Shown: positions 17,901 to 32,099 of the stretch, piece by piece | How the letters are laid out: each line of letters starts with the position of its first letter | Position numbering within the stretch: position 1 is the first letter of the stretch | DNA from: a virus | DNA: 35,478 nucleotides | Strand: one strand, 5' to 3' | IMG/VR virus record: IMGVR_UViG_3300010885_011297 | Span: 1 to 35,478 of that record | Notes under the pieces: model-generated | Told to the model about the DNA's origin: nothing | The model's input: the letters and a program-made list of their open reading frames with translations, nothing else | The model's database searches: none | Made by a program: the position numbers and the translations under genes

Positions 17901-20900
17901 TTCATATGCAGGTTATATAGCAGAATATGGTGGACGTATCCGTGCTACTAACGGTAACAGCTCATACGGTACATACGGTGTTATTGCTGAAGGTATTGAC
18001 AGCTACGAAACACCAATCTACGGTCGTTTAAATAACCGTGCTAATCCAGCATATATCACAAACGTTGTAACAGACGGAACAGATAAGATTCTTCGTTTAG
18101 AATTTGAAAATGCTGGTAGTGCATATACTAATGCTACTCCAACAATTAGTGGAGCTGGTTATAACATTGTTGCAATACAAGATGAATTCCGTGACTCAGC
18201 AGTATTTGAAACACGCTTAGTTGACTTAAACAACGGTCAAGGAACTGGCGGTAGCAACTACTTAACAGCAAGTAATGTGGCACAAACTGGTACAGTTGGT
18301 ACTATAACTATTGCTAACAGTGATATTCAACTAAGTTCAGCTTACGTTGGTATGAGAATACAGATTGTAGCAGGTTCAGGAGTTGGACAGTATGCCAACA
18401 TTATTGGTTACTCTCAAGCTAGCAAACTTGCCAACATTATTCGTCCAAATTTTGCAACATTGACTATCACTGTAAACTCAACAACATTGTTTACAGTGGC
18501 TAGTACAGCAACTATGTACGTTGGGCAACCGATATACATGAACGCATCAATCGGCGGATTAAGCGTAACTGGCTCGGGAGCAACGGCAGTATATACCCCA
18601 ACAGTTTACTTTGTAAGTACAACTAGTTTCTCTAGCACACAATTTAGACTTTCTACAACTTATGCAAACGCTATCGCTGGAACTAATATTACCCTAACAG
18701 CAACTAGTGCAACACCGGCAGTAACAACAGCTTCAATTATTGTTGGAACTACATTAACTGTGGGAACATTAACATCCGGTGTAATTTATCCAGGCATGCT
18801 ACTAACAGGCGGATCAATATTAGCTAACACATACGTTGTTGCTAATATTAGTGGTAGTGGTGCAGGTTCAACATGGACTGTTAGCGTGAGTCAGAACTTA
18901 GCAAGTACAGCCTTAACTGGTACTGTTAGTGTTTCAGTATACGAAGCTGGGTGGGACCATGTTGTTCCAGGAAATACTATCACTAGCGTTCTTGATGCTA
19001 CATCAGCATATATTATTGAGCCAGCACTATCATATACTGCTCCAGGATTTACAAGTACTGCAATCACTATGACTGCGGCAGCTAGTACAACATGGTCTAG
19101 CGTGGCATACGGTCAAGGTACATTCGTTGCTATATCAAATGCAACAGGTGTACGATCAACAGCAACTACAATTGACGGCACAACTTGGGCCGCAGGAGGC
19201 AACTTACCAGTTGATGCAAGTTCTACCTGGGGTAGAATTGTGTACGGTGGTGGACAAAATGCTGTAGCTACAGCAGTTGTTGGCGGTATTGGCGGCAGCG
19301 GTGCTGTATTACAAGCCGTAGTAGGTGCTGCCGGTACTAATGTATCTGGACAAATTATTAGTATCACTGTAGTTAACGGTGGATATAATTATACTACACC
19401 TCCTAATATTGTAATTGTCGATGCGTCAGGTTCTTCGGGCGCAACTGCAACTGCCCGTGTATTGAATGGTTCAATCCAAGCAGTAGATATGGTAATTACT
19501 GGTAGTGGTTATTCAAGTGCAACTGTTACTGTTACAGCAGTTACAAGTAGCCTATCAAGTATAACTGCTACAGTTCAAGGTTCAGGATACTATGCGGCAC
19601 CTACAGTAACTATCGCGGCACCGTTTACAGCTACAGGTTGGTCTAGCGGTGGCGCCGCAACTAGCGGAATATATTACTCTGCGGTCGATACAACAGTAAG
19701 TCCAAACGTAACTAACTATTATCTAGCAGGCGGAAGCGGAACATTTAGTTCAACTAAACCAACATTTACTAATGCAGTTTATGGTAAATCTGGTTATGGC
19801 GCAACAGGTGTTGGAGCAAGCGGTACATATGGTGTAACGTTAACCTATGTTGGTACCCTAGGAGTTGCTACAGCTACTACTAATACCAATACAGCAGGAT
19901 ACGGTGTGATAAGTTACACTGTATCACAAATTGGTTACGGGTATGCATCAACCCCGACAGTAACAGTAACAGATCCAAATGCGGCATTCATGGCAATTTC
20001 TACTGCTACAAACTCTGCGGCGTACAGCACAGATCAAGGAACATCCTGGACTGCTACTAATGGAAATACAGGTAAAACAAATCTTAAATCACTAGCATAC
20101 GGTAATAACTTATATATTGCAATTGGCGGAACAAGTTCAGCAGTAGCAGTATCGTTTGCACCAAGTGTACTTTCAACTACAACATGGTCTGATCAATCAA
20201 GCTATATTACAGCAAACTCATCAGGTTATAGTTATATTGCTTATGGTGCAGGAGTATTCTGCGCAATCGGCGGTACTGTAAGTTCATTTACAGCGGCAGA
20301 TCCAACTAAGTGGTATGCAGGTGCTACGTTACCAAGTAAGACATGGGTAGGCGTTGCCTACGGTAATGGTCGATTTGTAGCATTAGCTAGCGATGGTACA
20401 CTATATTATACAACTAACTGGCAAAGCGGTGGCTGGACTACTACTCCGTCAAATGCGGCAAACAATACATGGAATGCAGTATTAAATAATCCTTTATACG
20501 CAAACGGTGTAACAACATGGAGCAGAATCAGATACGGTCAGGGATTATTTGTAGCAATATCTAACACACAAGCAGTAGCAATTAGTTCAGACGGTCTAAA
20601 CTGGACTTATTATGCCACCGGAATGCCAAGTTCAAGCAACTGGTTAGGACTAGCATTTGGTAATCCTGTAAATGCTACGCTAGGAAGAGTACCTACATGG
20701 GTATCAGTATCTAACACAAGCGGAAAAATAGCAACGACTATTGCAACCGGTGCACGACCAAGTGGCCGTGCTAAGGTAGTTAACAACCAACTTAGTGAAA
20801 TTAGAATGGTTGAGCCCGGAAGTGGATTCCCACGCGGTAACGTAACAGCAACTAGTACAACAAGTACAGGTACTATTACAGTTGATAATATTACTAACTT

Positions 20901-22047
20901 GGCAGCAAATCAACCTATAGTATTTGGCACAAGTTCAGGTAATATTGTTGCAGGAACGTACTACTTTGTTAAAGGTACACCAACAAGTACAAGCGGCCTA
21001 GCAGGAACATTCCAAATATCTACTACCGCAGGTGGAAGTATATTTGCTCTAACAGCATCAACACCGACTAGCATGACATACTTTGCCGGGCCAATTATTA
21101 CACAGACTGACCCTAACAAAGTTAATACAGCACCGTTAGTGTCTCGAATCGGTAATGGCGCACTTGGTAATCCAAGTTTTGGAAATCGTGGTACTAGTAA
21201 CTCGACTGCTACAGCAAGTTATCTAGGTGACGGCTATGCAGATTTGTATCAAACAGGTTCATATGTTAACGTAAGTGGATTATATTCGATCCCAACAGCG
21301 GGTTGTAACGTGGTGTTTAGTAGTATTACTGGTTCTGCAAGATGGTATAAATTGGTACAAGTAACTAACATATTAGGTATTCCTGGAAACTATACTGCTA
21401 CATTCCAGATTAATCCAAGTATATCTACACTACTAGCGGCAGCGCATAATGATTTAATCACAACAAACTTGTCATACAGTAACGTTCGTTTAACTGGACA
21501 TGACTTCTTGTATATTGGTACAGGCGGCTTCTCAGCAACCAACTATCCGTATGTTGATGCAACTAAAGCGGTCAGTGCTAATCAACAGTTGTTTGTGGGT
21601 GGTGGACGAGTGTTCTTTACAAGCACTGACCAAGACGGTAACTTCAACGTTGGTAACTTGTTTGGAGTCCAACAGTCAACTGGTACTGCTACATTGAACG
21701 CTAGTGCGTTTAACTTATCAGGACTACAATCGTTGACACTTGGATCGGTTAGCCTGGGAGTTGGATCAGCTACAATTACACAATTTAGTACAGATCCGTA
21801 CTTTACAGCCAACAGCGATAGCGTTGTACCAACACAAAAAGCTATTAAATCGTTTATTACAGCCCAGATTGGTGGCGGTCAATCAACATTGAACGTAAAT
21901 ACTATCACATCTGGACAGATATATATTGCTGGAAATACGATAAGTAATACTAATAATGCACAAATTATTGTATCAAGTAAAATGAACTTTACAGGCGGAA
22001 TAGATGGAGCACCCGTTGCCCTTATATTCTTTGGTGGACAAAAATAA
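11917..22047 (+). CDS. Giant modular tail adhesin B (3376 aa), paralogue of adhesin A
   Basis: Largest gene in the window, Ser/Thr/Gly-rich. Approximate residue order: six Trp/Tyr-rich repeats (9-316); an I-L-G-S-A-L-G-G module (342-425); a seventh repeat (427-462); the beta-helix entry V-Y-V-A-P-N-G-T-D with K-P-W-A-S (527-562); four alpha-helical motifs with x-Y/F-D-x-x-x-G-x-N spread between Y-Y-V/I beta modules (about 685 to 1860); the beta-helix core (1874-2049), closely matching adhesin A; further beta modules; propeller-like blades (2389-2935) with one blade split by a 240-residue insertion; and a C-terminal block ending soon after the shared T-Q-F-S-T-D and P-T-Q-K-A-I-K-S-F. An AGAGGA site precedes the ATG. 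It probably forms or caps a tail fibre that contacts host glycans. The function is inferred from domains and position. Confidence 0.85.
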   Translation: MAEFKLGRIKFVYQGTWAQNHSYAIDDVVTNGGKTYICVISHTSTNAVSGFATDLAGGAGVTKWNLISDGTTWRNTWAGATYYNLGDIVVWGATVYVCKTAHTSQTYLEDDTSKWDQFSAGFKWLGAWTTSTRYKVRDMVYYGGSTYVCNTQHTSASTAASGLENDSGKWDIFNQGITYLGAWSGNSVRYKANDVVKSGADLWICTTYHTSTGTAIDASKFSIFVYGFQFEGSYSSATAYQVGDVVTYGGYTYTAIQNNDSTSPQTPSTATAYWKVFTTGLNYSGEWDTGTSYKIGNIVTLGGYTYLAKADNSASKPPSANWGQLSSGIRWASAPNTTYTNVASSNVSATGSGSPTFTVTRSGTAYSVVIGGTAGTGYTVNDTLKILGSALGGSSPGNDLVVKVATITGGSGTGPISTVTVSSGYAATWKTGITYVLGDAVYYGNSSYICISAHVGSTGVNDPITDTGTYWNILANGADSGALTTQGDMVYYGVSGPTRLPIGTDGQILRVSGNQPAWQYYGQLQNVVYVAPNGTDSSGSGQGTTLDKPWASLLYACRQVEDGYLNVNAGLALTVNKQFMMKEVNNFIQVNYSFNVTGTSASGNTFTVGGTSTSSQTTTANMYYGMPITFTAATGGVTVGTVYYVNTFPTTTTFTISDVYQSGSTRSITSSSVVTSTAAFNYTQSKAERDTGTVIDGIIFDLTHGGNLYSETATKAYFKTLTTFTSTGTTQQAPVFAGSLAYLNNTLFPAILANSAPANNYQTLNGISTKAIQNTTTVTTASIETGALTTAQGLLAIITGALTAGTYGNIPQEQRPHTTIYLKTGTFNEYGPIVVPVDTAIVGDELRSTIVQVAGANVNLYNDKPKTAVALQRVQSVLSNLVANSTVTPTTTGTTAPNTQTQIKSLPAGDTGNTSAVNLVVSNTRTIQDMFAGGGVITGPTNSNYPNGLLHQPVISMPTVTGYNSSYLANYGDGVTLIQNNYQFIKDEIVAFLAADGNLTGSAQWSAYSSTYQAETLRDLTYILDAVCYDMTYGCNNQSLITGSSYYSLNTAQLVSPYLIGVTESLTRLSTILGQIVQKTAVIKTTSGSLPNTTTQYTTGTAGSAAAASFAQARIADIVYWINNGAPDTSTATFTGSISGTTLTVSSVTGTVKIGQIVTGGTGSGAVAAGTYITAGSGTSWTVSISQTTSSATGSTLVITPVASGSYALATTANKASYDAIQARASEIANDAKSWVTRFYQNESPILSLTTRDAGYIVSALAYDVLFGGNFGSIQCGRSFNRPITSVQTVQNSLADSTYGAIGFVGERVKLIAANGAVVQTSTVIDEMVAQIYGQPTSTATFNGTITGTQLVVNGSVTGTIAIGMQLTGTGIANGTTIVSGSGTTWLLNYNQSASSTTTSIINVTTSVTLNGNTYTNVLTAGTTTGFVPGLVITITGSSISNLTAGTYYIKQVLSSTQFTVSSTYLGSTFTINSTATGAMTAVVYGIYGGLALTTNITASGTTIPVTTVTTSTNLITVSSNAGMYVNMPIVFTGLSANITTTATSITSNAITLSSITGVAVGQRVWFTGFTPQASGTASSIIANQNYYVQSIVSSTITIAATLGGSAITLTNASGLTLTAIFNTAGGLVNGNIYWINSVTAGTYPAAGTTITVTNSYKSGTAFAITNTVSGLTATATAGMSTNQGINDKNTNGTIQPWNNPTGSYASVSGYNNTLATIQGAEIIRANKTFLANEMVAYVLSQFTGTVTTTASGGTITCSGSHNLTVGDPIVFSGTSFDANITIGTKYWVLTTPSTTTFTMTITAPGTGTQSTKTLVGDTGSMTVSYYMSQTKCIRDANQYLDALVYDLGLTGNYKSSRAIQIYLSAQAGSTSTDLFHLRNGSGIRNMTTNGLTGALTLPNALGTKRPTAGSYSSLDAGFGPNDSSVWISNRSPYTQNLTLFGSGCSGMKIDAALHNGGNRSIVANDYTTIISDGFGVWCTGSGALTELVSVFAYYSYAGYIAEYGGRIRATNGNSSYGTYGVIAEGIDSYETPIYGRLNNRANPAYITNVVTDGTDKILRLEFENAGSAYTNATPTISGAGYNIVAIQDEFRDSAVFETRLVDLNNGQGTGGSNYLTASNVAQTGTVGTITIANSDIQLSSAYVGMRIQIVAGSGVGQYANIIGYSQASKLANIIRPNFATLTITVNSTTLFTVASTATMYVGQPIYMNASIGGLSVTGSGATAVYTPTVYFVSTTSFSSTQFRLSTTYANAIAGTNITLTATSATPAVTTASIIVGTTLTVGTLTSGVIYPGMLLTGGSILANTYVVANISGSGAGSTWTVSVSQNLASTALTGTVSVSVYEAGWDHVVPGNTITSVLDATSAYIIEPALSYTAPGFTSTAITMTAAASTTWSSVAYGQGTFVAISNATGVRSTATTIDGTTWAAGGNLPVDASSTWGRIVYGGGQNAVATAVVGGIGGSGAVLQAVVGAAGTNVSGQIISITVVNGGYNYTTPPNIVIVDASGSSGATATARVLNGSIQAVDMVITGSGYSSATVTVTAVTSSLSSITATVQGSGYYAAPTVTIAAPFTATGWSSGGAATSGIYYSAVDTTVSPNVTNYYLAGGSGTFSSTKPTFTNAVYGKSGYGATGVGASGTYGVTLTYVGTLGVATATTNTNTAGYGVISYTVSQIGYGYASTPTVTVTDPNAAFMAISTATNSAAYSTDQGTSWTATNGNTGKTNLKSLAYGNNLYIAIGGTSSAVAVSFAPSVLSTTTWSDQSSYITANSSGYSYIAYGAGVFCAIGGTVSSFTAADPTKWYAGATLPSKTWVGVAYGNGRFVALASDGTLYYTTNWQSGGWTTTPSNAANNTWNAVLNNPLYANGVTTWSRIRYGQGLFVAISNTQAVAISSDGLNWTYYATGMPSSSNWLGLAFGNPVNATLGRVPTWVSVSNTSGKIATTIATGARPSGRAKVVNNQLSEIRMVEPGSGFPRGNVTATSTTSTGTITVDNITNLAANQPIVFGTSSGNIVAGTYYFVKGTPTSTSGLAGTFQISTTAGGSIFALTASTPTSMTYFAGPIITQTDPNKVNTAPLVSRIGNGALGNPSFGNRGTSNSTATASYLGDGYADLYQTGSYVNVSGLYSIPTAGCNVVFSSITGSARWYKLVQVTNILGIPGNYTATFQINPSISTLLAAAHNDLITTNLSYSNVRLTGHDFLYIGTGGFSATNYPYVDATKAVSANQQLFVGGGRVFFTSTDQDGNFNVGNLFGVQQSTGTATLNASAFNLSGLQSLTLGSVSLGVGSATITQFSTDPYFTANSDSVVPTQKAIKSFITAQIGGGQSTLNVNTITSGQIYIAGNTISNTNNAQIIVSSKMNFTGGIDGAPVALIFFGGQK
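11940..12860 (+). repeat. Six tandem Trp/Tyr-rich repeats in adhesin B
   Basis: Units follow the pattern W-x4-Y-x3-D-x-V-x3-G-x-x-Y-x-C with a trailing H-T-S in the first four. They are clearly related to the array at the start of adhesin A, and as there the last two units lose the Cys and His. A seventh unit at 13196-13300 is separated from the array by an inserted module. Copies differ considerably at base level, so the duplication is not recent. Confidence 0.75.
19261..19980 (+). other. 240-residue insertion splitting a propeller-like blade in adhesin B
   Basis: Intact blades in adhesin A read I-V-Y-G-N-G-T-F-V-A-I-S. In adhesin B a blade begins I-V-Y-G-G-G-Q-N (ending at 19260), and its expected continuation A-A-F-M-A-I-S plus A-A-Y-S-T-D-Q-G-T-S-W-T starts at 19981. 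The 720 bases between encode Gly/Ala/Val-rich beta repeats with several G-x-G-Y-x-x-x-P-T-V patterns. The insertion is in frame, so the blade can still close. Confidence 0.6.
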
Positions 22048-22436: not shown

Positions 22437-23462
22437 ATGGCACGTTACAATACCGTTATCCCGGTTAATATAATTACAGGAGCAGCCTCTCAGACATACA
22501 CTCTGACAGCTCCTAGAGAAGGTCAGCTAACTGAGTTTGCCGGTACTGCTCCGTATACTGTACAACTTCCTAATCCAGCATATTTTGCAGGACAATCATT
22601 AGCACTTTATAATGCTACTTCAGGCAGTGTAACAGTAAGTACTTCTGCAACTAGCGGAAGCATTATAGGTGCAGCCACAAATAATAATAGTAGCTACGCA
22701 TTAACTACTCTTACTTCTGCGTTTTTGTATTCTGATGGAACAAACTGGGCATCAGTAGGTGGCGGCGGTGGCGGTCCTGTTAACGCAACCACTATCAGCG
22801 CAAGCTCTACAGTCACTCTAAGTCCAGCAAGTGCTAACGTAGCAATTAGTCCAACAGGTACCGGTACAGTTGCAATTAGTCCAGCAGGCGCTTTGACAAT
22901 CAATCCAACGGCAGCTAGTTCAATTAACAACACTAGTGTTGGAACAACTACAGCGGCAGCTGGTGCGTTTACTACATTATCAGCTAGCTCAACAGTTAGC
23001 GGCAGTGGTTTTAGTACATATCTAGCAAGCCCTCCAGCTATTGGCGGCACGGCAGCGGCAGCTGGTACATTTACAACATTCACAGCAACTGGTATAAGCA
23101 CATTGGCAGCAGTTACTGAAAAAATAGTTCCATTGAGTGGTGCTACAGGTACTGTAACGCATGACTACAGTGCAGCCGGTGTGTTTTATCACACAAGTAT
23201 TTCAGCAAACTTTGTACCAAACTTTACTAACGTACCAACTACGGCGGCTAGATCTGTTACTGTAACGCTAATTTTAAATCAGGGCGGCACACCATACTAT
23301 CCAACCAGTGTACAGATTAACGGTAGTGCATTTTCAATCACATGGCCAGGCGGTGTAACACCAACCCCACGTGCTAGTAAATACGAATTTGCAACATTTA
23401 TTTTAATTAACCCAGCTGGCTCGTTCAACGTAGTACTGGGACAATACGGATCATTTGGTTAA
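22437..23462 (+). CDS. Tail-fibre-like protein (341 aa)
   Basis: The N-terminal third is a beta domain with T-Y-T-L-T-A-P and V-Q-L-P patterns, followed by a Gly-rich linker of six glycines near residue 115. The middle holds GTGTVAI-type repeats and two copies of a G-x-T/G-x-A-A-A-G-x-F-T-T-L/F unit, a pattern common in repetitive phage fibre shafts. The C-terminal part (from about residue 230) begins G-A-T-G-T-V-T-H-D-Y-S and ends in V-L-G-Q-Y-G-S-F-G, resembling terminal domains of marine T4-like fibre proteins. It lies 16 bases after the small protein and 27 bases before the next gene. Role inferred from repeats and context. Confidence 0.7.
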   Translation: MARYNTVIPVNIITGAASQTYTLTAPREGQLTEFAGTAPYTVQLPNPAYFAGQSLALYNATSGSVTVSTSATSGSIIGAATNNNSSYALTTLTSAFLYSDGTNWASVGGGGGGPVNATTISASSTVTLSPASANVAISPTGTGTVAISPAGALTINPTAASSINNTSVGTTTAAAGAFTTLSASSTVSGSGFSTYLASPPAIGGTAAAAGTFTTFTATGISTLAAVTEKIVPLSGATGTVTHDYSAAGVFYHTSISANFVPNFTNVPTTAARSVTVTLILNQGGTPYYPTSVQINGSAFSITWPGGVTPTPRASKYEFATFILINPAGSFNVVLGQYGSFG

Positions 23463-23489: not shown

Positions 23490-24758
23490 ATGCCATTTTT
23501 AGGAACAATAGGTGGAAGCAACGAAGCTAAGGGCGCAGGTAGTTACCACCCAGGCGGCGGCCCAGTAGATACAGCAAGTAGCTCAGGTAGCGGATCAATT
23601 GGTACTAGTACACTAAGCGGATCGGCTACTGCCCCAACAGGTAGCTCGATATCAGGACAACGAATTACATTCGATCCTTACTTTAGCGGTTCTATCGTAT
23701 ATTCAATATCTAGTGGTAGTTTACCTCCAGGTTTGAGTTTGAACACTAGTACTGGTGCTATTACTGGATCATATACTGCTCAAGCTCTTAATACTAACGG
23801 CCTTGTATATACATTTACTGTTAGAGCAACTGATTCAAGCCCAGCGGCACAGTACACTGAACGTACCTATACTGTTACTTTAAGTGTTCCGTTTGCTTAT
23901 AGACAGATTCTTACTCGTAACTATGTTATGGGAGGTTATCAAGGGTCTAGTTACTGGAGTAATGCTAGTCGTTTATTACATTCTAATGATACAACTAGCG
24001 ATTTAGGTGACGGTGCATGTAATAACTTCCACTATAAATCTGGTGGTAATAACGATACGTATGGTTGGATCTGGGGCGCAGCCGGTTCTGGCGACGGTGT
24101 TTGTAATGGCACATCTCGATACAACATGCGTACAGAAACCAATGCTAACTCAACAGGCTATTCAACTGGTTGCGGACACACTGGGACAGTACAAAGTGCA
24201 GATCGAACAAGATTATACTACTGCGGAAACGGCCCATCAAATGTTTACAGATTCCAGTGCAATACAGAAGTGTTTACTAACTTAGGCGGCGGATTTGATG
24301 ATCACTCTGCTGGTATATTTGGTGAGTTTATTGGCATTTGGTGGGGTAATGGCGGCCAAACATCAAAAGTTACGTGGTCTACTGAAACAATTGCAGGTGC
24401 TGACAACACTGGTGCAAGTCACGGACAACAAAAAGGTCTTAGCGGTAAAGCAGGATATGGCTACGGTGGCGACCAAGGTAACTACAACGGAGGTTATAAC
24501 TTCCGTAAGACAAATATGACAACAACTAGTTCGAGTGACTCTGGTAGTCGTCCAAGTAAGATGTTTGGTAACATGGGCGAAGAAAACTACGGTACAGGAC
24601 AGTTAAAAGGATATGTTGCTGGTACATATGACGGCGCACAAAATAATCGTGGCGGACAAATTACCTATTCTACAGACTCAGCTAGTGAAAACAATGCTTT
24701 ATACTTAACTAGCCGCCACGGCGGATCCAGTTCTGGATGCATGTTTGGAAGAGATTAA
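23490..24758 (+). CDS. Fibre/receptor-binding-like protein with putative Ig domain (422 aa)
   Basis: A TAGGAG site precedes the ATG. After a Gly/Ser-rich leader (1-45), residues about 50-130 carry S-G-S-L-P-P-G-L-S-L-N-T-S-T-G-A-I-T-G, the classic core of the putative Ig (He_PIG, cadherin-like) fold. The rest (from about 140) begins Y-V-M-G-G-Y-Q and is rich in Gly, Asn, Trp and Tyr, with a C-terminal region of Gly-containing segments like those found in variable receptor-binding tips; it contains several Cys and ends C-M-F-G-R-D. Being the last structural gene before two unrecognised proteins, it is a good candidate for the host-range tip. Binding partner unknown. Confidence 0.65.
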   Translation: MPFLGTIGGSNEAKGAGSYHPGGGPVDTASSSGSGSIGTSTLSGSATAPTGSSISGQRITFDPYFSGSIVYSISSGSLPPGLSLNTSTGAITGSYTAQALNTNGLVYTFTVRATDSSPAAQYTERTYTVTLSVPFAYRQILTRNYVMGGYQGSSYWSNASRLLHSNDTTSDLGDGACNNFHYKSGGNNDTYGWIWGAAGSGDGVCNGTSRYNMRTETNANSTGYSTGCGHTGTVQSADRTRLYYCGNGPSNVYRFQCNTEVFTNLGGGFDDHSAGIFGEFIGIWWGNGGQTSKVTWSTETIAGADNTGASHGQQKGLSGKAGYGYGGDQGNYNGGYNFRKTNMTTTSSSDSGSRPSKMFGNMGEENYGTGQLKGYVAGTYDGAQNNRGGQITYSTDSASENNALYLTSRHGGSSSGCMFGRD

Positions 24759-24787
24759 TAATTAATGTTATTAATGGAGATTTAAAC

Positions 24788-25744
24788 ATGGATCTGAGTT
24801 TACCAAAGTATCACACTGCATTGAGCCCAAAAACTATAAAGACCGGCACCTCAATGCTATCTGATGCCGAGCGCGAAATATTACTTACAGCACACAATAA
24901 AGAATGGACAAATCCAAAATTTAAAGTGCGTTGGTTTATTGGCGAAGCAAACTATACACCTTACGGAAAACTTAAACAATGGTTGATGGAAGCTAAATCT
25001 AGAGAGCAAACTATTGAAAGTGTAGAAACTGATCATAATAGAAAAGCTATTGAATTAAAAATTGTAAATAGAAACATCGAAAACGAAACAGACGAGTTGA
25101 AAAAAGAACTCTTAATGATTGACGCATTTGAAATTAAAAAAAATATGGACGGCATGAATAACAAAATTGCCGATATCTATAAAGAAAGAAAAGAAATTTT
25201 AGAATTAATAACAGATTTCTTAGCTTCAGAAGAAGGTAAAACACCAGATGGTCGATCACTGATGGATGTAGTTAATACTCCTGAAGAAGAAATGTACGAA
25301 GCTCAATACTGGACTGTGCGACTAGCACGTCAGGCAGCAATGGATATGGTAGCATATGGCCGTATCGGTGCAGGCAATTACGAGGCTATACAGCAATTAC
25401 ATCCTAACCAACAAGTAGAAGTTCTCGGACTAGCAAATCACATTTCATTAACGTTAGATAAAAGACAGGAAGCTATTAGGCAAGAAATTGGTAAACATTT
25501 AGGATTTGCTCCTCCTGATCAAGGTTATCTCGGATCTATCGATCCAAAATTGCTTAATAGTGTAATTGACGCAGGTAATGCAAACATGGTCTCATCATTA
25601 GCCGCTAGTAATCCAGACAATCCATATAAGGAAAATGTACCGCCACAGGAGTCGGTACCTGAAGTAGGTAATGCATTTTTTAGCATTAAATCAGAACCTG
25701 TAATTCAACAAGAAAACGGAATCAACAATGTATATAATTTATGA
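24788..25744 (+). CDS. Unrecognised coiled-coil-rich protein (318 aa)
   Basis: An in-frame ATG exists at 24737 inside the previous gene, but the ATG at 24788 has a GGAGA site at 24776-24780 with 7-base spacing, so I use it. The protein is soluble and unlike its repetitive neighbours: rich in Glu, Lys and Asn, with a strongly helical, probably coiled-coil segment at about residues 65-145, a second helical part at 165-240, and a Pro/Asn-rich tail. No enzyme motif is visible. Its position right after the fibre genes and its composition would fit an assembly chaperone or a scaffold for fibre folding, but this is context only. The next gene overlaps its end by 17 bases. Confidence 0.6.
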   Translation: MDLSLPKYHTALSPKTIKTGTSMLSDAEREILLTAHNKEWTNPKFKVRWFIGEANYTPYGKLKQWLMEAKSREQTIESVETDHNRKAIELKIVNRNIENETDELKKELLMIDAFEIKKNMDGMNNKIADIYKERKEILELITDFLASEEGKTPDGRSLMDVVNTPEEEMYEAQYWTVRLARQAAMDMVAYGRIGAGNYEAIQQLHPNQQVEVLGLANHISLTLDKRQEAIRQEIGKHLGFAPPDQGYLGSIDPKLLNSVIDAGNANMVSSLAASNPDNPYKENVPPQESVPEVGNAFFSIKSEPVIQQENGINNVYNL

Positions 25745-26348
25745 ATTCACAAGTAGTGACAACCCTGTAGAGCAGTTCATAGAATTCTTTTCTACGTACT
25801 GGCAATATCGTGTTGGATTTATCAGTCCAGAAAACGAATCAAAGGTAGACCTTGCAGAACTAAATGCTGTAGAACTATCTTGGGACGTTGCACGAGCATC
25901 TAAATTTGCCCATTATAATAAAAAAGAACTCGGCGACATTATCAAATTTAAATGGGGCGATGACGAAACCCATGAAATGTTTTCATCTGCAGAACAGGAA
26001 GTGCCTAATCCAACTAAAACTGGTAAAGCATTATATGAATTAACAAATGAAGATAAATCAAATACATTAACCTTTTTACAAGCTATGATGACCAAGGAAC
26101 TAAATTGGCACTTTAGCCAATTGACTCCCGAAGAACTTGCACAGTATGGCGACAATAAATTAGCAGTACAATCAGAAATTGATGGTTGCAATAATATTGA
26201 AGATGCGCATCGTGTAATGCATCATAGATTTGGATGTTCATGCCATAACTGGCAATGCGAAGAGGAAGAATTAGACGGCTCAACATGGATGCTCAGCGAA
26301 CCAAGTTTAGAAATCCGTCCATGGGGTCGTAGGAATCATATACAGTAA
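25728..26348 (+). CDS. Unrecognised protein with Cys/His cluster (206 aa)
   Basis: Starts inside the end of the preceding gene (17-base overlap), which suggests coupled translation. The protein is acidic and Trp-rich, with no signal peptide or membrane segment. Residues 154-177 hold C154, H161, H165, H166, C170, C172, H173 and C177, a dense set of possible metal ligands; the order does not match a zinc-finger class that I know. The C-terminal end (Trp187, Trp199) is basic. I cannot assign a function. The pairing with the coiled-coil protein hints that they act together. Confidence 0.55.
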   Translation: MYIIYEFTSSDNPVEQFIEFFSTYWQYRVGFISPENESKVDLAELNAVELSWDVARASKFAHYNKKELGDIIKFKWGDDETHEMFSSAEQEVPNPTKTGKALYELTNEDKSNTLTFLQAMMTKELNWHFSQLTPEELAQYGDNKLAVQSEIDGCNNIEDAHRVMHHRFGCSCHNWQCEEEELDGSTWMLSEPSLEIRPWGRRNHIQ

Positions 26349-26365: not shown

Positions 26366-26414
26366 TGTGCCAGCGGGCACATAAGTAATTTACCTGTTAT
26401 AGGAAGTTACTTAT
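26366..26414 (+). promoter_or_regulatory. Hairpin plus inverted repeat overlapping the start codon of the U32-like gene
   Basis: Two perfect inverted repeats lie in the 64-base gap. The first is TGTGCC-AGCG-GGCACA (26366-26381). The second pairs ATAAGTAA (26381-26388) with TTACTTAT (26407-26414); its 18-base loop holds the AGGAAG ribosome-binding site (26401-26406), and its right arm covers the first two bases of the ATG at 26413. The two helices share base 26381, so they would compete or stack. This may control initiation of the enzyme cassette; the first hairpin could also attenuate transcription, although no T-tract follows. Confidence 0.4.
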
Positions 26415-28050
26415 GCCCAAAAAAATCTTCAGCGTACCACTAAATCCCAAACTTAATGCGGAGCAGTTTCAAGCCTTTTATCAGTGGTTAGCAACAAATA
26501 AAGACCATATCGCCGACGTATACTTTACTTCGCGTATTGCTCCATTTAAGCAAGATGCCATGGGCGATTTATTTTTACTAGAAGAAGATCATTATTCATT
26601 AATTGAAACAGCATTAAATATCCAAAAAACTCTTGGAATTAAAGTTAGTGCAACCTTCAATAACATAACAGTCCCGCCAACACAGCAAAATTTAGACAAG
26701 TTTATAATTAACTTCAAACCTCTGTATGATGCTGGTATTAGAATTGCAACAATTCCGCATACACATTGGATGGCAACTGGACAGATTAAAAAAGCATTTC
26801 CAGAATTATTTGTAAAAAATACAATACTTAGAGACGTTAGAGCTGCCAACGAAATTGTAGCCCTTGCAAAATATGGATTTGATTATATCAATCTTGATAG
26901 AGACTTAATGCGTGATAGGGACACACTACTACGCCTTAAAGATGCCAAGATTTGGATTAAAGAAAATCTAGGTAAAGACATACAGTATAGCTTGTTGGCA
27001 AATGAATCTTGCATCGGCGGCTGTCCTATGATGGTTGAGCATTTTGAATTTAATAATACTAGAGATGATCAACAACCTCAGTATTTTAATAATCCAATTA
27101 GTCGTGTAAGTTGCCCTAAGTGGGAAATTGAAGACCCGGCGGTTTATCTTAAAACAGCTAATCTACCGCCTTGGCGCGAAGACTGGGAAGAATTTTTTGA
27201 TCTTGGCATTGATGTTTTTAAAATGCACGGAAGAGAAAACGCCGGCCGCCTAGAAGATACTATGGATATTATTAATCGATGGGTCGCTGGTGAAAAATAT
27301 CTACACGCTAACTTTGAACAATATCTAAAAGAAAGTAATTTCGATGGTAAGCCTATCGAAGTGTATCGTAACAAAATCAAAAATTGTAAATTTGATTGTT
27401 GGGAGTGTCAATTTTGCGACCGTATTGAAGAAGTTAAAAGTAAATTAGATTACACTAGCCTAGTCAAACATGTTGTTGTAAGCATAGCAGATTCAGGAGT
27501 TCCAACAGTTAACACAAAAATACCAGGCGAAACTAGTTCACGAGTACAAACAGTATTGAACTCAATCGCTAAAGGTGTCGGTTCTTATTTAGAAATTGGA
27601 GCCAATCTCGGAGCAAACAGCGCCGCCGTATTAAAGGATAATCCGCTAACAGCATATTTTGTAACTAATTGGGACAAATCAAATATTTCTGTAGAGTCTT
27701 TCTTGGCAAATATTGATCCATACATTGACAAATCAATTACTATTACACACAACACAGAACCTCTAGAATTAGATTTATCGTTAGTTACTGATAAAATACA
27801 AATGTTATTTTATAACGGTCCTACAACACCCGACGATGTGGGTAGCACTATTTTATACTATTACTCAATATTGGCAACTGAATCAGTTCTTGTTTTTAAC
27901 AATGCTAATGATGAAAACTTAGTGCTAACTGTGGACGATGCTTTAAAAATTACAAATGCAAAAGTCACTTATAAAAAATTAATTTTAAATTCTAACAACA
28001 ATCCTAATGAGTGGTGGAATGGATTGTATGTCTTGGTGATTAACAAATAA
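26413..28050 (+). CDS. U32-like iron-sulfur TIM-barrel fused to a SAM methyltransferase-like domain (545 aa)
   Basis: Residues 1-345 resemble the U32 family (YhbU/UbiU/UbiV/RlhA type): D-Y-I-N-L-D-R-D-L near 157-165 and the signature N-E-S-C-x-x-x-C-P-x-x-x-E-H at 197-210. Cysteines C200, C204 and C234 together with a C-x3-C-x2-C-x2-C set (C325, C329, C332, C335) could hold one or two Fe-S clusters; modern members use Fe-S chemistry in hydroxylation reactions rather than proteolysis. Residues about 388-545 look like a class I SAM methyltransferase: motif I L-E-I-G-A-N-L-G (393-400), an F-Y-N-G-P segment (467-471) and a C-terminal W-W-N-G-L-Y-V, as in methyltransferases found in marine phages. 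The ATG has an AGGAAG site. The two-domain fusion is unusual; the substrate is unknown. Confidence 0.7.
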   Translation: MPKKIFSVPLNPKLNAEQFQAFYQWLATNKDHIADVYFTSRIAPFKQDAMGDLFLLEEDHYSLIETALNIQKTLGIKVSATFNNITVPPTQQNLDKFIINFKPLYDAGIRIATIPHTHWMATGQIKKAFPELFVKNTILRDVRAANEIVALAKYGFDYINLDRDLMRDRDTLLRLKDAKIWIKENLGKDIQYSLLANESCIGGCPMMVEHFEFNNTRDDQQPQYFNNPISRVSCPKWEIEDPAVYLKTANLPPWREDWEEFFDLGIDVFKMHGRENAGRLEDTMDIINRWVAGEKYLHANFEQYLKESNFDGKPIEVYRNKIKNCKFDCWECQFCDRIEEVKSKLDYTSLVKHVVVSIADSGVPTVNTKIPGETSSRVQTVLNSIAKGVGSYLEIGANLGANSAAVLKDNPLTAYFVTNWDKSNISVESFLANIDPYIDKSITITHNTEPLELDLSLVTDKIQMLFYNGPTTPDDVGSTILYYYSILATESVLVFNNANDENLVLTVDDALKITNAKVTYKKLILNSNNNPNEWWNGLYVLVINK

Positions 28051-28160
28051 TGTGGGTACTCGGAATATCTAAACATCATAATGGTGCTATTTGTTTAATA
28101 CACAATGGCAATTTGTATCTTCCTGGAACCAAAGCACTTGTAACAGTGGCTAATAAGTAG
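28050..28160 (+). pseudogene. N-terminal remnant of a NodU/CmcH-type carbamoyltransferase (36 codons)
   Basis: The ATG at 28050 overlaps the stop of the previous gene (TAATG), as in translationally coupled pairs. The first 20 residues, MWVLGISKHHNGAICLIHNG, fit the N-terminus of NodU/CmcH carbamoyltransferases, which open with I-L-G-I-S-x-x-H-x-x-x-x-x-L-x-x-x-G. The full family is several hundred residues long, but this frame ends at a TAG after 36 codons, and the sequence after N-G-N-L-Y-L no longer follows the family. It looks like the leftover of an internal deletion. The fragment is short, so the family call is moderate; a small expressed peptide cannot be excluded. Confidence 0.5.
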
Positions 28161-28166
28161 TATACT
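28138..28166 (+). promoter_or_regulatory. Sigma70-like promoter before the halogenase
   Basis: TTGTAA (28138-28143) and TATACT (28161-28166) are separated by exactly 17 bases and match the -35 and -10 consensus at 4 of 6 and 5 of 6 positions. They lie in the remnant region just before the halogenase ATG (28179). Initiation about 6-8 bases after the -10 would fall near 28173, leaving almost no leader, and could lose part of the AGGA ribosome-binding site (28169-28172). The element may therefore be fortuitous or give leaderless mRNA. Confidence 0.4.
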
Positions 28167-28178
28167 ATAGGACATATC

Positions 28179-29702
28179 ATGATTATTAATAAAATAAAAA
28201 ACATAATTATTTTTGGCGGAGGTACTAGCGGTTGGCTAACTGCGGCCTACCTGACTAAGAATTTAAATTTTCCAGTTACTGTTACGCTAATTGAAAGTAC
28301 AGCTATGGGTCCTATAGGTGTGGGGGAAGGAACACAGCCTGCAACATCAAGATTTTTATTCGATGCTGGCATACTACCAAAAGCATGGATGAAACCTAGT
28401 AGTGCAAGTTTTAAGTTAGGCGTAGAATTTGTTGGTTGGAATGATAATAATTTTTTTGTAGATAATGATTACGTAGAAAATTCCATAATGGGTCCAGGGT
28501 TGCGAGTGATGGATTATTTTATCGACAAACCCAAAGAAGATTTTTATAACTGGTTGCCATCGTATCGTATGGCAAGAGCCAATAAGAGTCCTAAGTTAGG
28601 CGGAATGGATGCTACTATTGGCGTTCCTAATTTGAGAGAAGCTGGGGCAGTACATTTTGTAGCACATGACATTGTTGATGCTATTAAACAAAATATTCAA
28701 TCTAGGATTGATTATTTCGATACTAAAATAGTTAACATTACAAAAGACGAAAACGGCATCACCGGATTAATTGACGAAGAAGGAAGAACTCATACTGCCG
28801 ATCTATATATCGATTGCTCGGGATTTAGTTCAGTATTATTAGAAAAAACACTTGGTGTAACTTTTAATTCTATTGAAAAGTTTTTACCTTGTAATAAGGC
28901 AGTGGCTATACCAACGGAGTTTAAAAATCCACAAGAAGAATGTCATCCTTATACTAAAGCAACTACAATGACAGCTGGATGGATGTGGACTATTCCTAAT
29001 TTCAAGCGTATCGGTAACGGCTATGTTTATAGTGATCGACATATTACCCCAGAGGAAGCAGAAGCTGAGCTAAGAAAAACTATCGGTGAATATGATGCTC
29101 CTGCTAAACATTTAACAATGAAATGCGGAACGCACAGTAATGTTGCTCACAAAAATGTAGTAGCGGTGGGACTTAGTGCAGGCTTTGTAGAGCCCTTAGA
29201 AGCAACGGGTATTACATTTACTACTCGCATAGTTGAAGGATTGACATCGCTACTAAATCAACAAAATGGCATTTGGGGTGGCGCCCCGATGAATTCATTA
29301 AATCAGATGTATAGTATTATGACTTCAGAAATCCTAGCATTTGTATGGTGTCATTATCACTACAGCAGTCGAAATGATACACCTTTCTGGAAGGATATTC
29401 GACATCAGCGATTAGAGGATTTGCCAGCATCAATTCAAGAAATTATTCGAGAATTTGTACCAGACCCACACCCACTATTATATTTAAACTCATCTTCTAG
29501 TTTCCAAGTAGGTCACTGGTTTGAATTATTACATGCATCTGGCGTATACAAAGATTACGTGTCGAGGCTTGATGCAGAACGCAATGATTATGCTGAATAT
29601 GCAGCCAAGGTACATGAGCTACGAGCTAACTTAGCTATTGAAAAATTCCCCAATCATTATGATTATTTAAAATCGTGGTATGACAATGATAACCCTATTT
29701 AG
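28179..29702 (+). CDS. Flavin-dependent tryptophan halogenase-like enzyme (507 aa)
   Basis: Member of the FAD-dependent halogenase family typified by PrnA. The FAD-binding G-G-G-T-S-G-W is at 13-19, V-G-E-G-T-Q-P at 48-54, and the catalytic lysine equivalent is K79 within S-F-K-L-G (same number as in PrnA). The halogenase hallmark W-x-W-x-I-P is at 269-274 (W-M-W-T-I-P), and G-F-V-E-P-L-E-A-T-G-I (336-346) includes E342, matching the conserved active-site glutamate. The length is normal for the family. Such enzymes chlorinate or brominate aromatic substrates using reduced FAD and oxygen; no flavin reductase is visible in the window, so reduced flavin would come from the host. AGGA precedes the ATG by 6 bases. 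The end overlaps the next gene by 23 bases. The substrate cannot be told from sequence. Confidence 0.88.
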   Translation: MIINKIKNIIIFGGGTSGWLTAAYLTKNLNFPVTVTLIESTAMGPIGVGEGTQPATSRFLFDAGILPKAWMKPSSASFKLGVEFVGWNDNNFFVDNDYVENSIMGPGLRVMDYFIDKPKEDFYNWLPSYRMARANKSPKLGGMDATIGVPNLREAGAVHFVAHDIVDAIKQNIQSRIDYFDTKIVNITKDENGITGLIDEEGRTHTADLYIDCSGFSSVLLEKTLGVTFNSIEKFLPCNKAVAIPTEFKNPQEECHPYTKATTMTAGWMWTIPNFKRIGNGYVYSDRHITPEEAEAELRKTIGEYDAPAKHLTMKCGTHSNVAHKNVVAVGLSAGFVEPLEATGITFTTRIVEGLTSLLNQQNGIWGGAPMNSLNQMYSIMTSEILAFVWCHYHYSSRNDTPFWKDIRHQRLEDLPASIQEIIREFVPDPHPLLYLNSSSSFQVGHWFELLHASGVYKDYVSRLDAERNDYAEYAAKVHELRANLAIEKFPNHYDYLKSWYDNDNPI

Positions 29703-30270
29703 AGCAGATTTATTTACACGAGCCAATGTTGGTACCGAAGATCAAAGAAAAGATATTGTTGATCGTCTATACCAACTAAAACAAGAAACTCCACCTTCAC
29801 CGAATACTAATCGATTGTGCTGGAGGATGAAATTTCCATTAGGTGATATATCTTGGTTAGCAGAAGAAATAAAGTTGTTAGCAACCGAAGCTATCGATTA
29901 TTATAAAGATCAAGATCCGGGTTTCAAAATATTTGCCAATGAAAATACTAATTTTTCTTTTAGTTACTGGGCAAATATTAATGAGCCTAGAAGCAGAAAC
30001 GTACTACACGATCATAGACATGCACATTTTGCCGCTGTATATTACCTACAAGGAAAAGATTGCGGTTCACTTCGCTTTCCACATCCTAGCAATATAATAA
30101 TGAGTGATGTTAATGACGACGGTCCGTTTGTGCGAGACTTTGAGTTCGAACCTACTGACGGTGATTTAGTATTGTTTCCTGCATTGTCAGCGCATGAGGT
30201 TGATGTAAATCTTTCAAATCGAGACAGAGTAAATCTTGCATATAACATAACAATGGTTAAAGATCTATGA
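29680..30270 (+). CDS. 2OG-Fe(II) oxygenase-like protein (196 aa)
   Basis: The double-stranded beta-helix pattern is clear: N-V-L-H-D-H-R-H-A-H near 107-116 with H110 and H112 as candidate metal ligands, followed by A-V-Y-Y-L-Q-G (119-125); then G-D-L-V-L-F-P (161-167), H172, and R183 in R-V-N-L-A-Y-N-I, which fits the 2-oxoglutarate-binding Arg. It resembles the 2OG-FeII_Oxy_5-type proteins common in marine T4-like phages. The predicted reaction is oxygen- and 2-oxoglutarate-dependent hydroxylation of an unknown substrate. It starts inside the halogenase end (23-base overlap) and overlaps the next gene by 4 bases (ATGA), so the three are probably translated together. Confidence 0.75.
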   Translation: MTMITLFRADLFTRANVGTEDQRKDIVDRLYQLKQETPPSPNTNRLCWRMKFPLGDISWLAEEIKLLATEAIDYYKDQDPGFKIFANENTNFSFSYWANINEPRSRNVLHDHRHAHFAAVYYLQGKDCGSLRFPHPSNIIMSDVNDDGPFVRDFEFEPTDGDLVLFPALSAHEVDVNLSNRDRVNLAYNITMVKDL

Positions 30271-31001
30271 AGAAAATAGAATTCTTTTCAACTATACCAG
30301 GTGTTGCTGATGCATGTCCCATGATGTACTCAAAAGATTATACTCCAAGTTGGGTTAGTACTCTTAGAGACGATTACAAAAAAGTTAAAGAACATAATAT
30401 GCACGGTTTTACTCATCTGTATCGATGCCCAGGTATATTTGAATTGATGAGAGAAGGATTCTTACTAACAATGCCTTGGGATATGGACATAGAAACCAAC
30501 GGAACCCCTTGGGAATTTACATGGACTATCCCCAATTCAGAAATTTCTGATTTAATGGATCCTGTGCTTCTAGTTCAATCACATACTAAAGTAGCCGAAT
30601 TAATGCCAGTGCCGCCGGGTGCTCTTAACAGTATCGTCAAAATCAATACGCCCTGGCATATTAAAGTTCCTAAAAATATAAAATTTATAGTATTACCAGT
30701 AAGCGATGATGATCAAGTATTTCAACAAGTGCCAGGTATATTAGATCCGTCAGTTAGTACTGAAATTAACTTTCAGTTGAGATGGTATAAACAAAAAGGT
30801 ATGTATCGTATTAAAGCCGGAACTCCTATGGCACAAATTATTCCTCTAAGCGAAGAAAAGTTTGAATTAATTTGTCGAGATGCTAACGCATGGGATAACA
30901 TATTTTTGCAAAAAAGAAAATATTTAAATAATTTTTCTTTTGTATTAAACCGAAAGATTATGCAAAAGGTATATAGAAAACATTATGGCCTCAGTGAATA
31001 A
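30267..31001 (+). CDS. DUF6065-like protein of unknown function (244 aa)
   Basis: The overall order (opening F-F-S-T, a Y-R-C-P turn, M-P-W-D, H-T, an I-N-T-P-W-H-I-K segment, G-I-L-D-P-S, then a C-terminal K-A-G-T-P-M-A-Q-I-I-P-L) recalls the uncharacterised DUF6065 group, which I name from memory and with moderate confidence. There is no signal peptide, no membrane segment and no obvious metal-ligand pattern. It starts in an ATGA overlap with the upstream oxygenase and its end overlaps the downstream gene by 17 bases, so it clearly belongs to the same translation unit. The many aromatic and Pro residues suggest a beta-rich enzyme or binding domain. It may be a partner of the oxygenases; function unknown. 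Confidence 0.6.
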   Translation: MKKIEFFSTIPGVADACPMMYSKDYTPSWVSTLRDDYKKVKEHNMHGFTHLYRCPGIFELMREGFLLTMPWDMDIETNGTPWEFTWTIPNSEISDLMDPVLLVQSHTKVAELMPVPPGALNSIVKINTPWHIKVPKNIKFIVLPVSDDDQVFQQVPGILDPSVSTEINFQLRWYKQKGMYRIKAGTPMAQIIPLSEEKFELICRDANAWDNIFLQKRKYLNNFSFVLNRKIMQKVYRKHYGLSE

Positions 31002-31509
31002 ACACAATTGGTTCCCTACAATTGGGTATAGTGGCCACATCAATATTGATAAATCCACTATTAACGATCATCGTAACTGGATGAAAGTGCAGAAAGAAAT
31101 TAGAGACAGTTCGTACGGAACTACCACTAAAAATGGATACCAGTGTCCGTTAGATAACAGCATGTCAATACCAAAATGGTATGAAACTTTATACGAACAA
31201 TTAACCGATGCACGGCTAGCACTACAGCCGTCTGTTCATAAAAGTACCTGGGTAATTGATTATGAGCCTGGCGGATATCAAGAAACACATATACATCATG
31301 TTAGCGAAACACTAGTTTTGAATATCAGCGGCGAGGGTGTACTAATGTTAGCAGACCCTCGTCCCATGGCTGTCTGTATGAGCGAGCCGTGGTATGAATA
31401 TGTTACATTAAAATCCGGAGATTGGATTACTATTCCAGGTTGGCTAGGGCATGCCAGTAGTCCCTGCGAAGGCCCTAGAAGTATTATGGTAATGGATTTT
31501 ATTCTATAA
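30985..31509 (+). CDS. Cupin/oxygenase-fold protein (174 aa)
   Basis: A double-stranded beta-helix protein: W89 and Y93-E-P-G-G-Y lead into Q-E-T-H-I-H-H (99-105), then L-V-L-N-I-S-G-E-G-V-L, and G-D-W-I-T-I-P-G-W-L-G-H (145-156), followed by R165. H102 and H104 with H156 are the candidate Fe ligands and R165 may bind a carboxylate co-substrate, as in 2-oxoglutarate oxygenases; a plain cupin is the alternative. It overlaps the previous gene by 17 bases and is 2 bases from the next one. With its neighbours it makes three consecutive-region DSBH proteins in one cassette. Substrate unknown. Confidence 0.6.
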   Translation: MASVNKHNWFPTIGYSGHINIDKSTINDHRNWMKVQKEIRDSSYGTTTKNGYQCPLDNSMSIPKWYETLYEQLTDARLALQPSVHKSTWVIDYEPGGYQETHIHHVSETLVLNISGEGVLMLADPRPMAVCMSEPWYEYVTLKSGDWITIPGWLGHASSPCEGPRSIMVMDFIL

Positions 31510-31511
31510 TT

Positions 31512-32099
31512 ATGGCAATAGCAGACTTATTCCCCACCCCTATCTTTATACATGATTTTGAAGGTGCAGATCTTAAACTTATTCAAGATGAGATTACACT
31601 GTCGTTACCAGAAATAAGAAAATCACAAAATCATTCAACATTTACTGGTAGTGTTAATAGTACTTTCAAGTTTGATCAAGAAGAAAATGTTAACGATATT
31701 AAGAAATTTAATTTAAAAGTTTTTAATGATGTAGCAATTAGTGCAATTCGTGCTTATTCTCAAATGATTGATTATCGAGGCCCTGTGTTAAAAATAGATG
31801 GGTCGTGGATTAATTTTTTTAATAACGGAAATTTTTATCATGATCATAATCATCCGGGTGTAAAAGTTGCAGGAGTTTACTACTACGCAACAAATGGTAA
31901 AGACGGCGACTTAAAATTTCAAAACCCAAATCCTTATATGTATTCGTATCAGTGGCCTGCTGACGGAACTCCTCAGGATTGTATGATTTTTCCTCCGAAG
32001 GTCGGTAGGCTAATGTTATGGCCAGCTTGGATGATTCATCGAGTCGAGCAAAATCAAACTGACAGCGAACGGATAAGCATTGGCATAAATTATAACTAA
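31512..32099 (+). CDS. 2OG-Fe(II) oxygenase-like protein (195 aa)
   Basis: It begins L-F-P-T-P-I-F near residue 6, a hallmark of phage 2OG-FeII_Oxy_5 proteins. The core carries N-F-Y-H-D-H-N-H-P-G (107-116; H110, H112, H114), G-V-Y-Y-Y (121-125), a G-R-L-M-L-W-P segment (165-171), H176 and R187 in R-I-S-I-G-I-N. These are the metal- and 2-oxoglutarate-binding patterns of the family. The end is only 42 bases before the membrane protein gene. It resembles the oxygenase at 29680-30270 in H-D-H-x-H, but the rest differs, so they are separate family members rather than recent duplicates. Probably hydroxylates a protein, nucleobase or metabolite; which one is not visible. Confidence 0.8.
   Translation: MAIADLFPTPIFIHDFEGADLKLIQDEITLSLPEIRKSQNHSTFTGSVNSTFKFDQEENVNDIKKFNLKVFNDVAISAIRAYSQMIDYRGPVLKIDGSWINFFNNGNFYHDHNHPGVKVAGVYYYATNGKDGDLKFQNPNPYMYSYQWPADGTPQDCMIFPPKVGRLMLWPAWMIHRVEQNQTDSERISIGINYN

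Follow-up and report, generated by a model that had tools for sequence, protein, structure and literature searches.

A phage halogenase cassette that appears to be inherited together with a tail adhesin

The window analyzed here, a stretch of 35,478 nucleotides of viral DNA (IMG/VR record IMGVR_UViG_3300010885_011297), contains giant tail fibre genes, a run of smaller genes with a putative tip adhesin and a cassette of six genes, P1 to P6:

2756..11866, plus strand: giant tail fibre of 3036 aa with six CBM5/12 modules and one laminin-G-like domain (phrog_9851 tail fibre, E 6e-113; Pfam CBM_5_12 and Laminin_G_3)
11917..22047, plus strand: second giant tail fibre, 3376 aa, with five CBM5/12 modules (phrog_9851, E 2e-143)
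22437..23462, plus strand: fib341, fibre-associated protein, at the same position as in relatives (phrog_5906, phrog_9017 tail fibre; weak Phage_depo_C)
23490..24758, plus strand: fib422, putative tip adhesin with an Ig-like domain and a glycine-rich part (phrog_1417; He_PIG, E 7e-11; 17.5% Gly)
24737..25744, plus strand: U335 (phrog_1409), constant neighbour of the adhesin and P1
25728..26348, plus strand: U206, small protein at a conserved position upstream of P1; no confident match in family-profile searches
26413..28050, plus strand: P1, U32-like barrel fused to an O-methyltransferase-fold domain (phrog_1458, E 5e-153)
28050..28160, plus strand: 36-codon open reading frame resembling a carbamoyltransferase N-terminus; its sequence starts MWVLGISKHHNGAICLIHNG and its ATG overlaps the P1 stop
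28179..29702, plus strand: P2, flavin-dependent halogenase (PF04820, E 2.5e-93, residues 8-464, nearly full length)
29680..30270, plus strand: P3, 2OG-Fe(II)-oxygenase-fold protein (PF13759, E 2e-13; phrog_81)
30267..31001, plus strand: P4, dUTPase-like-fold protein (phrog_7084; AlphaFold pLDDT 94.7)
30985..31509, plus strand: P5, cupin/2OG-fold protein (phrog_81, E 3e-10; weak Cupin_2, E 7e-4)
31512..32099, plus strand: P6, 2OG-Fe(II)-oxygenase-fold protein (TIGR02466, 74.7 bits against a cut-off of 62.5; PF13759, E 6e-20)

The six co-directional open reading frames of the cassette (26413-32099) overlap or are separated by gaps of 2 to 128 bases, as the first-pass annotation of this DNA had described. 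This arrangement is not due to chance, because dozens of contigs show the genes in the same order. Among 80 viral contigs sampled through P1, 52 have a halogenase, with the order adhesin-U335-P1-halogenase-oxygenase-P4 or a close variant. In a second sample, built from the halogenase, P1 lies within 2 kb in 34 of the 36 close loci with flanks, fibre genes lie within 8 kb in 32 of the 36, and P1 accompanies distant phage halogenases in only 2 of 15 loci. The cassette genes are thus not scattered in relatives. Accessory content varies among loci, with P3, P5, P6 and P4 coming and going.

That marine phages carry halogenase genes has long been known. P2 has PyrH (E 2e-72) and VirX1 (E 9e-56) as relatives in the PDB, and all expected motifs are present and conserved, including GxGxxG (GGGTSG), WxWxIP (WMWTIP), Lys79 and Glu341. 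With added halogenase relatives, the catalytic Lys is kept in 168/168 sequences and the Glu in 166/169. By its sequence, P2 is a flavin-dependent halogenase of the PrnA/PyrH/VirX1 type, in line with its initial assignment. Among phage enzymes, halogenating activity has been demonstrated only for VirX1, in vitro; this iodinating enzyme has been structurally solved and reportedly has a large, accessible active site (PMC8407142), which is compatible with a bulky substrate. In the papers found, phage halogenases are assigned to antibiotic protection of their host or to the making of a secondary metabolite, or their role is left open.

P1 had been described as a U32-like barrel fused to a methyltransferase. 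Both folds were recovered, since its AlphaFold model (pLDDT 86.5) matches the U32 peptidase 5D88 (TM 0.69 on target, prob 1.00) as well as O-methyltransferases of the TrmR/COMT type, and PF13578 is matched by 51 of 52 P1 members; Pfam Peptidase_U32 matches none of these 52, the P1 of the window included. Seven cysteine residues are invariant (Cys200/204/234/325/329/332/335) and could hold a cluster. The C-terminal part retains the methyltransferase fold and motif I (ExGxxxG; E394, G396, G400), but its active site is degenerate in this genome only (D418T, D468N, H471T, D496N and D497N): the five residues are kept in 116-119 of 120 P1 proteins, and the window is the sole degenerate case among the 120. 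Judging from these substitutions, the methyltransferase has almost certainly lost its activity in this genome. Cellular homologues of P1 were limited to two MAG contigs, both resembling phage fragments.

The two folds of P1 recall TrhP (U32) and TrmR, which act one after the other on tRNA U34, by hydroxylation and then methylation (PMC6599085), and whose U32-type barrel and TrmR-like methyltransferase fold are fused in one protein in P1. Unlike these enzymes, P1 has no U32 Pfam signature, its invariant E198, C200 and C204 are spaced differently from the catalytic E162, C170 and C177 of TrhP, its gene neighbours those for the adhesin, and in this genome its methyltransferase is degenerate. Modification of tRNA by P1 was rejected, as it leaves the linkage to the adhesin unexplained and the methyltransferase here is almost certainly inactive, and TrhP and TrmR are kept as a comparison.

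The fold and family assignments of P3, P5 and P6 as 2OG or cupin oxygenases also stood, with 2rg4 and 3bvc as PDB relatives of P6, but not the canonical iron triad that such assignments imply. HxD/E...H is absent, and HxH...H is found in its place in 50/50 sequences, with the Arg kept: P3 has the invariant residues H110, H112, H172 and R183 (His/His/His/Arg in 50/50), and H102, H104, H156 and R165 are invariant in 14 P5 sequences. Hydroxylase activity of the three proteins is therefore not assured. The same HxH is carried by PDB 2rg4.

For P4, the proposed resemblance to DUF6065 proved wrong, since a profile search of 49 members gave no DUF6065 match and the model has a dUTPase-like fold (Foldseek against dUTPases: prob 1.00, E 4.5e-4, TM 0.5-0.6 on target). 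The dUTPase profile PF00692 is matched by only 1 of the 49 members, at E 0.075, so that the profile does not place the family among dUTPases. No single-protein search hit for P4 was found in viral contigs, and the P4 alignment has no stretch conserved enough for scanning. In cyanophage Syn10, a P4 homologue lies directly 3' of VirX1.

Between P1 and P2, the 36-codon open reading frame is probably the remnant of a carbamoyltransferase gene, as the first reading of the sequence had suggested. In phage records it has four matches at E<=10, all to carbamoyltransferases or to their nodulation-protein homologues and all weak when taken singly (E 5-7); the match in phage S-SSM7 falls at the N-terminus of a carbamoyltransferase gene. 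In that phage, an intact carbamoyltransferase adjoins 2OG genes and a halogenase.

A related cluster in cyanophage S-SSM6a, with carbamoyltransferases, a halogenase and 2OG and cupin enzymes, was interpreted in 2021 as producing a halogenated secondary metabolite (PMC7824862), and the combination of enzymes in the window is therefore less unusual than first supposed. Like the window, S-SSM6a and S-SSM7 have carbamoyltransferase-type sequence, 2OG enzymes and a halogenase after the fibre region; they differ in having intact carbamoyltransferases, a HemK-like methylase and HAD phosphatases, whereas the window has P1 and P4 instead. A HemK methylase, a HAD phosphatase and a carbamoyltransferase core are all absent from its cassette, save for the 36-codon remnant. 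By extension, the cassette could serve to synthesize or modify a polysaccharide or small molecule within infected cells, such as a halogenated amino-acid-derived metabolite or a capsule decoration. The remnant of the S-SSM7 kind is consistent with this, as are the gene order in S-SSM7 (carbamoyltransferase, 2OG, carbamoyltransferase, halogenase, then heptose-kinase-like and carbohydrate-kinase-like genes) and the best structural relatives of P2, which are free-tryptophan halogenases. This is nonetheless rather unlikely: genes for a glycosyltransferase, a PKS or an NRPS were found neither in the cassette nor in those neighbours that were examined, the co-inherited unit described below contains no scaffold-building or sugar gene, a nearby membrane-protein gene tracks the backbone, and why the identity of the enzymes tracks that of the adhesin is left unexplained.

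Proximity to fibre genes extends to other phages, as seen in isolates. In S-SRM01, the halogenase is flanked by a fibre gene on one side and by a gene annotated as adhesin tip on the other, and halogenases are downstream of fibre genes in S-RIM44, Syn10, P-TIM40, S-CREM1, Sf-FP1, Sf-CH1a, P-RSM6 and S-SSM7; in S-B64 and S-MbCM6, the halogenases are not near fibre genes. The published text on S-CREM1 is silent on the presence of cassette proteins in its virions. After the VirX1 gene, a full-length match to 6qgm, come P4 and a run of oxygenases. This Syn10/Syn9 region (Kyanoviridae) resembles the window in having halogenase(s), a P4 homologue and oxygenase genes after the fibres, and many of the genes after P4 are of the 2OG/JmjC type. 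It differs in that the Syn10 stretch has no P1, two halogenases and a T4-like backbone, and the halogenases of the region are only about 28-31% identical to P2. Conversely, the T4-like cyanophages S-H25 and P-HM2 share the order fib422-U335-P1 (P1 about 41-43% identical), followed in S-H25 by a 2OG gene and DUF401, but have neither halogenase nor P4 in these stretches and a different virion backbone.

The virion backbone of the window is that of a jumbo-phage lineage (relatives of Atu_ph07 and PA5oct) and not T4-like. An origin from T4-like cyanophages was rejected, as the sheath stabilizer and the structural protein next to it have their matches in jumbo phages, and a search of 12 related contigs gave no psbA.

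Co-inheritance was measured as the correlation of pairwise sequence distances between genes (Mantel, rank correlation). The halogenase closely follows the adhesin fib422 (Mantel r 0.81-0.87; rank correlation 0.87, median gap 3.4 kb) and U335 (rank correlation 0.85), whereas its correlation with the backbone Nudix gene is only 0.26 at a gap of 3.1 kb (n=13); Nudix and the sheath stabilizer correlate at 0.62. The downstream gene for a DUF401 membrane protein, which has the same orientation, tracks the backbone (0.78 with Nudix, n=9) and not the halogenase (r=0.18, n=15). It adjoins the cassette but is not co-inherited with it, and was rejected as a cassette transporter. Between loci L130 and L136, the sheath stabilizer differs by 11%, and P1 and the halogenase differ by about 50%. 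Because the enzymes diverge in step with the adhesin, and not with the nearby backbone or membrane-protein gene, the exchanged unit is, as read from sequence divergence, the adhesin (about 22437-26348) plus the enzymes (26413-32099), one block moved horizontally between phages and here set in a jumbo-myovirus backbone.

Such a pattern could also arise with no common pathway, if independent auxiliary genes gathered at a recombination hot spot by the fast-evolving fibres and were held by physical linkage. The variable presence of P3, P5, P6 and P4, the decay of the P1 methyltransferase domain and of the carbamoyltransferase in this genome, and the location here of DUF401, which tracks the backbone, would fit. 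We consider it unlikely, given the adjacency of P1 and halogenase in 34/36 close loci, the lack of co-inheritance of the equally close DUF401 and catalytic residues kept almost without exception. The linked pathway initially proposed is thus supported as regards conserved linkage and retained catalytic residues, but not as a single linear pathway.

As the co-inherited partner is the tail adhesin, a virion protein is favoured among the substrates first put forward, which also included a host surface glycan and a small molecule. Since the enzymes travel between phages together with tail-tip adhesin genes, tailoring of the tail adhesin is suggested, and it is the best reading, held with moderate confidence. 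Modification of the receptor by the enzymes, or simply a recombination breakpoint lying downstream, would give rise to the same co-inheritance. A host surface receptor (protein or glycan) of the cognate adhesin might be modified, for instance to keep out superinfecting phages or to prevent progeny from adsorbing again. This explains the co-inheritance equally well, and genes for an outer-membrane-barrel-like protein and an inner-membrane protein lie 3' of the cassette, as would suit such a role together with the carbohydrate-binding modules on the fibres. It appears unlikely, as the membrane protein is not co-inherited and the six proteins have no obvious secretion signal, as judged by inspection of their sequences, so that cytoplasmic action is expected of them.

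If the adhesin is the substrate, as co-inheritance suggests, the cassette enzymes would act on it before or during tail assembly. P2 would halogenate an aromatic side chain that is exposed, hydroxylation of side chains would fall to P3, P5 and P6, and P1 would add a further oxidation, with O-methylation in relatives but not in this genome; the part of P4 would be that of an accessory binding protein. A tip modified in this way may bind the host receptor better or resist decay. The adhesin Trp/Tyr columns gave no convincing target specific to halogenase carriers, the candidates being few and column numbers shifting between alignment runs; the best C-terminal Trp is absent from the adhesin of the window and present in some carriers without a halogenase. 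Collagen-like fibre repeats were rejected as hydroxylase targets, as the proteins of the window contain no long GXY runs and no tandem repeats.

More tentatively, phages may vary the chemistry of the tips with which they bind receptors by means of exchangeable enzyme sets for halogenation, hydroxylation and methylation, each set dedicated to an adhesin and inherited with it; this would be the native job of VirX1-like halogenases. No description of post-translational tail-tip chemistry of this kind was found in the phage literature. With the halogenase, P1 and P4 varying together with the adhesin, but not with the neighbouring backbone, what was a loosely defined "auxiliary metabolic gene" becomes a specific, testable hypothesis on the role of phage halogenases such as VirX1, which predicts that tail-tip proteins carry halogen, hydroxyl and methyl marks. 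Such a role, if true, would add a chemical layer to phage host recognition and provide a source of enzymes for site-specific protein halogenation. JmjC_2 domains, whose family includes ribosomal-protein hydroxylases, are present in some relatives of the cassette.

The virus record is 35,478 bases long, and the six genes placed at 26413-32099 by the first-pass annotation agree with six plus-strand ORFs (P1 to P6), which overlap or are separated by at most 128 bases. The cassette and its surroundings read as follows.

Upstream, two giant genes for fibres that bear carbohydrate-binding CBM5/12 modules
22437-23462, fib341, following the giant fibre genes
23490-24758, fib422, Ig-like and glycine-rich, read as a putative tip adhesin
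24737-25744, U335, and 25728-26348, U206, two small unknowns
26413-28050, plus, P1, U32-like barrel with methyltransferase
28179-29702, plus, P2, halogenase
29680-30270, plus, P3, PF13759 protein
30267-31001, plus, P4, dUTPase-like fold without the dUTPase family profile
30985-31509, plus, P5, divergent relative of P3 and P6
31512-32099, plus, P6, PF13759 protein
32142-33188, plus, DUF401 membrane protein, immediately after P6
33199-33756, small outer-membrane-barrel-like protein that probably carries a signal peptide
Downstream, minus, Nudix gene and tail sheath stabilizer

It had been proposed that the same gene order be sought in other viral contigs, and it recurs there nearly unchanged. 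P1 as the sole query retrieved 80 viral contigs, 52 of which have the halogenase in the order adhesin, U335, U206 or equivalent, P1, (oxygenase), halogenase, oxygenase, P4; in the stretch examined of the remaining 28, no halogenase was found and DUF401 often comes next after P1. An independent halogenase-first sample, which avoids selection by P1 and partly overlaps the former (some contigs being reached by both queries), gave 36 close loci whose flanks span 2.5 kb or more. P1 lies within 2 kb in 34 of these, an oxygenase within 3 kb in 27, P4 within 3 kb in 24 and fibre genes within 8 kb in 32; the corresponding counts for 15 distant halogenase loci are 2, 8, 1 and 5. In the isolated cyanophages S-RIM44, Syn10, P-TIM40, S-CREM1 and Sf-FP1, fibre genes are likewise followed by halogenase, P4 and oxygenases, S-B64 and S-MbCM6 being exceptions to the halogenase-after-fibre arrangement.

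Enzymes that belong with the adhesin should have pairwise sequence distances that follow it and not the virion backbone. In the 13 loci where halogenase and Nudix lie no more than 5 kb apart, halogenase distances correlate with those of the adhesin (0.87, median gap 3.4 kb) but hardly with those of Nudix (0.26, gap 3.1 kb), with adhesin-Nudix at 0.17. Nudix and sheath correlate at 0.62 (19 loci with sheath data), and a wider locus set gave 0.86 for P1-halogenase, 0.85 for halogenase-U335, 0.76 for halogenase-P4 and 0.06 for P1-sheath. DUF401 is uncorrelated with halogenase (0.18) and P1 (0.21; n = 15) and tracks the backbone gene Nudix (0.78, n = 9), its correlation with halogenase climbing to 0.52 in one 9-locus subset. 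The distance pairs in these comparisons are non-independent and the subsets small. The simplest reading of these distances is that adhesin, P1, P2 and P4 are exchanged as a single block ending before DUF401.

We favour the view that the cassette enzymes would modify the adhesin itself, because they are co-inherited with it, a halogenase relative has an open active site (PMC8407142), the oxygenase families include JmjC_2 members in cyanophage cassettes, and the examined neighbourhood contains no scaffold-building genes. The last point bears on the main rival, a secondary-metabolite or polysaccharide system, as the related S-SSM6a cluster was called in a 2021 jumbo-phage analysis (PMC7824862). 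Modification of the host receptor instead predicts identical co-inheritance, and a search of the adhesin for Trp/Tyr columns specific to halogenase carriers gave no convincing target.

The best matches of the sheath stabilizer, and of the structural protein adjoining it in relatives, are jumbo phages (Atu_ph07, Phosso, PA5oct), and psbA is absent from 12 related contigs. Since the adhesin-U335-P1 block is also present in the T4-like cyanophages S-H25 and P-HM2, it is common to two myovirus lineages. Earlier work already describes halogenases and 2OG genes in phages, as well as a cyanophage cluster that combines them; new within the literature searched are P1 and P4 as cassette members, the cassette in a jumbo-phage lineage and its measured co-inheritance with the adhesin.

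P3, P5 and P6 each retain three His and one Arg. HxH...H...R replaces HxD/E...H...R in every PF13759-type protein of the window (29680-32099) and of oxygenase alignments A4 and A5, as in structure 2rg4. Three His residues at the metal site would be an unusual arrangement in a 2OG hydroxylase, and this substitution makes the predicted reaction of P3, P5 and P6 uncertain. Between P1 and P2, a 36-codon ORF (28050-28160) resembles a carbamoyltransferase N-terminus: all four records matched are carbamoyltransferases, each weakly (E 5-7), including the N-terminus of the S-SSM7 gene, which is intact and lies beside halogenase and 2OG genes. Cyanophage cassette genes labelled "DNA endonuclease V (denV)" (L004:13869-14474, L004:15832-16545, L177:10364-10915) are 2OG-Fe(II) oxygenases by Pfam, their name apparently a misannotation that has spread. 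In one contig that bears the cassette, a ferritin/Dps-like gene (L018:18336-18770) lies close to the neck genes.

By sequence, P2 is a flavin-dependent halogenase with complete catalytic motifs. VirX1 is one of two Syn10 halogenases (full-length match to 6qgm) and is directly followed by P4. Short halogenase-like proteins (~390 aa) without the catalytic Lys or Glu (L014:8812-10005, L112:8671-9852, L114:12492-13673) may represent a different flavoenzyme that joined the same cassette. In L011, L014, L016 and L020, an additional and more distant halogenase is encoded on the other strand, downstream of P4, P5 or P6.

P1 belongs to phrog_1458. In its AlphaFold model, the barrel resembles U32 structure 5D88 and the C-terminus TrmR/COMT-type O-methyltransferases; 51 of 52 members match Methyltransf_24, and seven Cys are invariant across all 120 P1 proteins. 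Within this set, the window's P1 alone has lost methyltransferase acidic/His residues (D418T, D468N, H471T, D496N, D497N), so that methylation probably does not take place in this phage. After the barrel, it carries CX3CX2CX2C (Cys325-335); CX3CX2C is the radical-SAM spacing, but its position is wrong for that family. P1 and U335 also occur on two MAG contigs labelled Dehalococcoidia RS371 (L098, which has the adhesin too) and Euryarchaeota UBA439 (L099), probably wrongly binned phage contigs.
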